DNA of 64,000 nt from Natronospira sp. (GTDB lineage Bacteria; Pseudomonadota; Gammaproteobacteria; Natronospirales; Natronospiraceae), in contig PWMQ01000073.1 of NCBI GenBank assembly GCA_003558125.1, positions 1 to 64,000 on the forward strand, read 5' to 3'. Positions 2,631-10,535 of this stretch are shown here, piece after piece. Within the stretch, counting starts at the first letter, position 1. The number at the start of each line of letters is the position of its first letter. The notes beneath the pieces were generated by a model that saw only the letters and a program-made list of their open reading frames with translations, did no database searches and was not told the DNA's origin. Both the position numbers and the translations under genes were made by a program.

Positions 2631-2859
2631 AGTGAACAGTGAACAGTTCCCAGTGAACAGCTGGCCGCGCCAGCCGAGAGGCCTACTGTTTCCTGGCAGA
2701 CAGTCGCCATGCTGCCAGCGGTACTAGCCGGATAACCGTGGGAGCGGCATTCCTGCCGCGACAGGAGGCTTATCGAAGCCCAGATCGCGGCAGGAATGCC
2801 GCTCCCGCAAAAGAACGGCCACATGCTCACTGTTCACTGGGAACTGGGAACTGTTCACT
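2631..2859. repeat. Composite repeat A2 (same family as A1)
   Basis: The left array (2631-2660) has four 7-bp units in the order AGTGAAC, AGTGAAC, AGTTCCC, AGTGAAC. The right array (2830-2859) carries the complementary CTGTTCA/CTGGGAA units. Between them lie the conserved core (about 2663-2711) and an opposed REP pair starting GTGGGAGC near 2739 and ending in its complement near 2808. The arrangement and much of the sequence match A1, in the same orientation. It has no credible coding potential. Confidence 0.8.
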
Positions 2860-3845: not shown

Positions 3846-3960
3846 GTAGGAGCGAATTCATTCGCGATCAAGGCCATCGGGTACCACGGCAAGCTCAACG
3901 TGGAATCGCGGATAAATCCGCTCCCACGGCTTCTTTTATCGCGAATGAATTCGCTCCTAC
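3846..3960. repeat. REP cluster B1 (three GTRG-type REP units)
   Basis: Three imperfectly palindromic units of about 22 bp lie between the HMG-CoA lyase and SDR genes. One is direct (3846-3867, starting GTAGGAGCG and ending TTCGCGA). Two are inverted (3906-3927 ending CTCCCAC; 3939-3960 ending CTCCTAC). A leading GTAG/GTGG tetranucleotide followed by a palindrome is the hallmark of REP sequences moved by RAYT (IS200-like) enzymes. The spacer between units 1 and 2 is alignable with that of B2. Confidence 0.85.
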
Positions 3961-4005
3961 GGTAGATACACCTGTTTTGAATGCAATCCATCGAAGGAGA
4001 ACACA

Positions 4006-4773: not shown

Positions 4774-4792
4774 TCGCTTGATCGAAACCCGC

Positions 4793-4874
4793 GTAGGAGC
4801 GAATTTATTCGCGATCCAGCCTATCGGCTGCCTCGGCAACTGAACGTTGGAATCGCGGATGAATCCGCTCCTAC
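4793..4874. repeat. REP doublet B2
   Basis: Two opposed REP units start GTAGGAGCG at 4793 and end CTCCTAC at 4874, with a spacer of about 36 bp clearly related to that of B1. The element begins 20 bp after the SDR stop codon and marks the boundary between the catabolic genes and pilR. Confidence 0.85.
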
Positions 4875-4930
4875 GGGGGCGTTGATGAAGCAGTATAGCT
4901 TGTCGGCTGCCGCTGCATTACCATCCCCCC

Positions 4931-10361: not shown

Positions 10362-10535
10362 AGTTCCCAGTGAACAGTTCCCAGTGAACAGTGGGGTCGC
10401 GGCCGCTAGAATGCTGTGAAACTCCGGCTGAAGCCGCACAAGACGCTGCCCACAGGTGGCAACTGCCTGGCAGAAAGCTGTAGGCTTTTCGGCTGGCACG
10501 GCCGGCTGTTCACTGGGAACTGTTCACTGGGAACT
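10362..10535. repeat. Composite repeat A3: heptad arrays with inverted core, no REP pair
   Basis: The left array (10362-10391) alternates AGTTCCC and AGTGAAC four times. The right array (10506-10535) alternates CTGTTCA and CTGGGAA. The internal core shared with A1 and A2 is present but in the opposite orientation (10458-10503). The REP pair found in the other two copies is missing. The element fills the whole pilC-pilD gap, so its last heptads act as the upstream region of pilD. Confidence 0.8.

Follow-up and report, generated by a model that had tools for sequence, protein, structure and literature searches.

The analysed stretch of 64,000 nucleotides of Natronospira sp. DNA (contig PWMQ01000073.1, positions 1 to 64,000; hereafter the window) contained three elements bounded by inverted arrays of 7-bp units, A1, A2 and A3, which are probably non-autonomous copies of a mobile element of the intervening sequence (IVS) type. 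We call them non-autonomous copies and not full IVS members because the gene of the 23S rRNA-intervening sequence protein (S23p, PF05635) is absent from all three, whereas one element of a sister species that shares their ends carries it. S23p genes lie as a rule inside heptad-bounded units across phyla, and in Nostoc plasmids whole units, both S23p-bearing and gene-less, were present in some records and absent from others. From this we infer that S23p causes the movement and that A1-A3 were moved by S23p. Paired heptamers and rRNA IVS were already known; new here are IVS-type elements outside rRNA, together with gene-less derivatives. No paper linking heptad arrays to PF05635 units was found in the open-licence literature.

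Architecture of the elements in the window

Inverted AGTGAAC/AGTTCCC arrays had been proposed as the bounds of A1, A2 and A3 in a preliminary description of this DNA, and they were found at those places. Two adjacent heptads occurred 16 times in the window, all within the three elements, while 100 dinucleotide shuffles of the window gave an expectation of 0.00. No strand was assigned to the elements, to their REP-type pairs or to the palindrome beside A2.

The paired-array search placed A1 at 349-570 (222 bp); the start at 349 agreed with the preliminary description, which had put the end at 568. In the sequence, the left array AGTGAAC-AGTTCCC-AGTGAAC was located at 349-369 on the plus strand and the complementary right array, GTTCACT GGGAACT GGGAACT GTTCCCT, at 543-570 on the minus strand. 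The stop codon of the upstream gene is the first TGA of the left array, and this reading frame extends 5 nt into the array.

A2 (2631-2859, 229 bp) had four heptads on each side: AGTGAAC-AGTGAAC-AGTTCCC-AGTGAAC at 2631-2658 on the plus strand, and the right array at 2832-2859 on the minus strand. Flush with its outer edge, a 20-bp perfect palindrome (2587-2630) surrounds the stop codon of the preceding gene, whose 3' end forms the left palindrome arm. The counterpart in the sister species is 21 bp and also perfect, and it differs in sequence through compensating changes. The opposed REP pair described for A1 and A2 was located inside the core of both, at 446-522 (inverted repeat I14) and 2740-2806 (inverted repeat I17).

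A3 (10362-10535, 174 bp) contained no REP pair and lay between a pilC-like and a pilD-like gene (names inferred from reading frames). Its left array AGTTCCC-AGTGAAC-AGTTCCC-AGTGAAC (10362-10389, plus strand) has an exact complement in the right array (10508-10535, minus strand; inverted repeat I6, 30 nt, 100% complementary).

The similarity of the copies persisted on alignment. A1 and A2 shared 84% identity over 222 bp, and the right half of A3 is the reverse complement of the left half of A1 and A2; therefore the three elements have a common core in opposite orientations, the core of A3 being of class I and turned against those of A1 and A2. The inverted terminal arms can form a long stem, and the long RNA hairpins suggested earlier were borne out by folding, which was far more stable than in shuffles (z -9.6 for A1, -14.9 for A2 with the neighbouring palindrome, -10.2 for A3). 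All three elements are intergenic, none is in 23S rRNA, and none contains a PF05635 gene. The window also held REP-like inverted pairs, GTAGGAGCGAATT..ATTCGCTCCTACGG, at 3846-3962 and 4776-4891, both without heptads.

The element family in the genus and its S23p-coding copy

We compared the window's genome (G000; 2.78 Mb, 110 contigs) with three others of the genus, the sister species G001, G002 and G003. The search of the genome and its relatives, recommended with the preliminary description, revealed that the elements are not unique to three sites: 46 paired AGT-type elements were found in three genomes, with 34 in the examined parts of G001, eleven in G000 and one in G002. The most frequent arm length was four heptads (54 of 92 arms), and the commonest order from outside to inside was AGTGAAC, AGTGAAC or AGTTCCC, AGTTCCC, AGTGAAC. 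A conserved core of about 50 bp had been described; a shared core was confirmed, but in place of the fixed 50 bp we found a family of about 118 nt in both orientations, most members starting with AG(C/T)nGGCCGTGCC and ending with the complement of this start. By short motifs, 13 cores pointed one way and 13 the other, with 19 unclassified. Some copies carried the REP pair inside the ~118-nt core or instead of it, a few had cores of just 21-34 nt, and the pair was missing from A3 and most other copies.

The gene-less copies are short, end in inverted repeats of some 30 bp and were dispersed in both orientations between genes, and their array length differed between copies and between relatives. 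In many cases the array began at the stop codon of the upstream gene or no more than about 20 nt from it. Upstream reading frames ended at offsets of -5, -12 and -19, using the TGA of an AGTGAAC unit as stop codon; because 7 is not divisible by 3, the TGA changes frame from one AGTGAAC unit to the next. Perfect palindromes of 7-21 bp abutted the array in 11 of 91 flanks of AGT elements, compared with 0.46% at random positions, and the allele without an element at one site was also without a perfect palindrome. For S23p units, 3 of 73 flanks had an abutting palindrome (0.7% at random).

Several further explanations were tried and rejected. The two arms of an AGT element resembled each other no better than arms drawn from separate elements (p ~0.5), so that homogenisation within elements was discarded and the pairing of AGT arms is attributed to an end sequence that is family-wide. 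RNAalifold gave almost no covariation for the class I core (-0.11 kcal/mol, 18 sequences), and a conserved RNA fold was not retained; RNA families gave only chance, sub-threshold matches to the elements. Clustering of copies in G001 had raised integron-like cassette arrays; this idea was set aside since the units lie among ordinary operon genes and the heptads do not seem to match the integron core site.

In one element of the sister species (G001:C3:170117-170632), AGTGAAC/AGTTCCC ends enclose a 453-nt core that encodes a 122-aa PF05635 protein (111.6 bits, cut-off 33.8; 104 bits against TIGR02436), with PDB 2gsc (XCC0516) and 2rld as relatives of solved structure. The left subterminal 39 nt of this copy align in place with the core of the short elements, weakly (6.5 bits). 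S23p was carried by only this one of the 46 AGT-type elements, and a search of 117 further contigs that contain AGT arrays revealed no S23p. The genus profile searches comprised PF05635, PF00078 and PF01797; no PF05635 match was found in G002 and G003, both of which hold many AAGC-type arrays. No match to reverse transcriptase (RVT_1, PF00078) was obtained in G000, G001 or G003, and spread by reverse transcription was rejected on this ground. No S23p was found in phage records. We know of no enzymatic activity of PF05635 proteins.

The surrounding intergenic sequence was too diverged between genomes to give a clean empty site for A1-A3 in relatives, which had been proposed as a check; other sites revealed turnover of the heptads. 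G002 contained AAGCnnC arrays and G000 additionally GAGCnnC arrays. At about five of 14 compared sites an AAGC element was found in G002 where G001 has an AGT element; at the A1 and A2 sites the AGT form stands in G000 as well. The sequence GC(T/A)GGCCG just inside the array was retained in at least two of these shared sites. One GAGC element carried the class I core (E 1.5e-10). At one site three heptads were seen: AGT in G001, AAGC in G000 contig 39 and GAGC in G000 contig 38; these two contigs (L228 and L227) cover one locus at 81-92% identity and may be strain variants in the assembly or a duplication. Several AGT copies of G001 were missing from G000 or G002. Sites and cores thus seem to last longer than the ends, which are apparently exchanged, unless insertion occurred twice at the same places. 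REP-like inverted pair elements filled some G002 sites where G001 has heptad elements, and on a gammaproteobacterial contig (L143, 3906-4100) a TTAGCTA heptad array was directly followed by a TTCACTG-type array.

Heptad-bounded S23p units in several phyla

Fifty PF05635 loci were inspected: the genus contributed five, the class 30, and plasmids of Cyanobacteria, Bacteroidota and one alphaproteobacterium 15. A period-7 array was found at the left end of 36, at the right end of 37 and at both ends of 30. Counted by gene ends, this is 73 of 100 for PF05635 genes and 14 of 107 for control genes of the same loci, and each of the periods 4-6 and 8-12 occurred at no more than three of 50 loci per side. 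As the 30 class loci are the best-scoring PF05635 matches, the array rate may be lower in diverged members. Of the 30 two-armed loci, 25 had arms that agreed as inverted repeats at 12 or more of 14 positions, while arms taken from different loci matched in 6%, and S23p pairs of at least 55% identity shared their heptad in 31% of cases, against 2% of the remaining pairs; this arm match and heptad sharing among close S23p indicate that the S23p unit ends in the arrays and passes them on when it is inherited.

The remaining PF05635 genes in G000 and G001 also have inverted arrays of short tandem repeats beside them or on both sides, with AGTTCTG, TGAGGAC, an octamer or a hexamer as the unit; the flanking arrays at L270 and L274 are of period 8 and period 6, not 7. 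Of the loci scanned with Rfam, L314 was with rRNA and the 40 others were not. In L270 (G000:C22:1872-5183) the S23p unit lies between Cas4-Cas1-like and cas2-like genes, as read from open reading frames, and three more S23p units were located in CRISPR-cas operons (L311, L313 and L319), namely cas6/cas4 in Pseudanabaena and Anabaena plasmids and cas10/cmr3 in Picosynechococcus. A genome of 1.5 Mb (G340:C1) contained eleven weak PF05635 matches, most with identical scores, perhaps the result of a recent expansion.

Filled and empty sites were found in Nostoc plasmids sharing a conserved gene trio. Between genes 1 and 2, three records contain an S23p unit (L317, L332 and L325), which begins at the stop codon of the upstream gene, and five records have 3 nt only (L305 and L326-L329); a further record has a different S23p unit with a different heptad between genes 2 and 3. 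In Nostoc sp. N6 (L325) the S23p gene itself is interrupted by a gene-less unit of 182 bp with four heptads per arm, and the flanks of this insertion continue without loss or duplication. Similar sequence was found at 100 places in 43 plasmid records. The unit has the architecture of A1-A3 and the heptad family of its host S23p unit; phylum and heptad family are other than those of A1-A3. In Azospirillum lipoferum 4B, one 23S rRNA copy contains S23p with arms of about four degenerate heptads each (by eye). This insert replaces a hairpin tip that is kept in another 23S copy of the strain, which has neither S23p nor heptads.

The suggestion of a non-autonomous mobile element is thus supported by dispersed copies in both orientations, by the same ends on a protein-coding copy and by the clean Nostoc insertion, and a recombination product, offered as the other option, is not needed as a reading. 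Four other explanations were weighed. The arrays might be passive microsatellites without any mobility, their 7-nt units being favoured by polymerase slippage and their inverted pairing preserved by the geometry of the hairpin. Heptamers are over-represented among bacterial tandem repeats, for which slippage has been proposed as cause (cited in PMC4692102 and PMC4679880), and the variable array length fits; we nevertheless consider this unlikely, as the arms are paired with a mode of four, the PF05635 association exists at period 7 only, related cores are dispersed and a complete unit was cleanly inserted into coding sequence in L325.

Ordinary MITEs of a conventional DDE transposon with an unseen autonomous copy, S23p being an occasional passenger, would equally be short and dispersed in both orientations with ~30-bp terminal inverted repeats. 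This reading is quite improbable, since direct repeats of at least 3 bp flush with the element edges were found in none of the 46 AGT copies, the gene that recurs in heptad-bounded units across several phyla is PF05635, and the heptad varies together with the S23p lineage. The differences from MITEs are the arms built of heptads, with no target-site duplication seen and no known DDE partner; short size, lack of genes, dispersal and terminal inverted repeats are shared with them.

Just as improbable is that these are non-mobile regulatory elements, terminators or mRNA-stabilising hairpins, held at operon junctions by selection. The gene-end location, the very stable folds and the occupation of about five of 14 compared sites in G002 too would agree with this, yet shared sites are unlike in their heptad and often in their core, G000 or G002 lacks several of the G001 copies, and whole units are present in some Nostoc plasmids and absent in others. 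Secondary regulatory use of mobile elements is possible.

That a REP/RAYT system is at work, with the opposed REP pair of A1, A2 and some other copies as the mobile part and the heptads as decoration, is very improbable even with a Y1-type transposase (PF01797) in each of G000 (two matches, one partial), G001 and G002 (one each), because A3 and most copies are without the pair, the same genomes have REP pairs without heptads (window 3846-3962 and 4776-4891), and heptad units accompany S23p in many genomes and exist in G003 (83% complete), where no Y1 transposase was found. The Y1-type transposase of G001 and G002 is probably a RAYT, which fits the REP pairs and not the heptads; a RAYT or a tyrosine recombinase had been named as a possible partner of the elements, but neither seems the best candidate. 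The partner that recurs is the PF05635 protein, and the REP pair travels in the core of only some copies, as a passenger.

Known relatives and a possible mechanism

The preliminary description knew of no named element with this layout. This holds in part, since paired four-unit heptamers are reported from Xanthomonas (PMC4692102) and tandem heptamers from the Coxiella IVS (PMC4990558). The rRNA IVS with S23p, such as that of Coxiella burnetii, has stem-forming inverted arms as do A1-A3, and in Coxiella S23p is accompanied by tandem GACAGAT heptamers on the 5' side (PMC4990558); A1-A3 have heptad arrays in both arms. Full-length copies of rRNA IVS contain the PF05635 gene; A1-A3 are gene-less, lie between protein genes and are built of AGTGAAC/AGTTCCC.

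The GGGAATC arrays of Xanthomonas (PMC4692102) are intergenic tandem heptamers, mostly of four units, in convergent inverted pairs near the upstream gene. Two species have them at mostly shared loci but with altered sequence, and the AGT elements agree in all of this. They are described there as G-quadruplex-forming repeats, and the parts consulted give no link to a mobile unit or S23p. Units of the A1-A3 type reach at most GGG, in some units, and we found no G-quadruplex capacity: neither strand of AGTGAAC contains a run of G, AGTTCCC has GGG solely on its opposite strand, and the units alternate. The TAACTGA repeats of Beggiatoaceae, Cyanobacteria and Bacteroidetes (PMC4679880) are likewise intergenic tandem heptamers, but they stand almost always as direct arrays ahead of start codons, a single case being inverted, whereas A1-A3 are inverted pairs. 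PF05635 proteins resemble Avd, the accessory protein of diversity-generating retroelements (PMC10053308: 4DWL and 2GSC); in contrast to Avd systems, the PF00078 search gave no reverse transcriptase for G001 or for the genome that contains the window.

For the mobile element of the IVS type, the following mechanism may be proposed. Full-length copies would make S23p, which would act in trans on the heptad ends, either as DNA or as hairpin RNA, and might help new copies to settle beside stop codons and, in some cases, at the base of a hairpin. Transcripts of the host operon would include the element, whose paired arms would form a double-stranded stem that RNase III could cut, and this would render the insertion tolerable. 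RNase III cuts the Coxiella rRNA element in vitro (PMC4990558), and by analogy it may process transcripts of the A1-A3 type. More tentatively, and with doubt prevailing, S23p could be the sole protein of a cross-phylum mobile class without known transposase or recombinase fold, its action rewriting resident heptads in place and giving a lineage-specific seven-base word at conserved sites.

This reading joins three puzzles: the scattered seven-base tandem repeats of bacteria, the function of S23p and the origin of rRNA intervening sequences. S23p is a widespread protein, also annotated as "four helix bundle" or "S23 ribosomal", and was so far known mainly from insertions in rRNA genes; its likeness to Avd adds interest to the mechanism. 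If the reading is true, rRNA intervening sequences would be those members of a general mobile element that lie in rRNA, and gene-less offspring of the IVS-type element would account for many of the intergenic repeats that lack an explanation.
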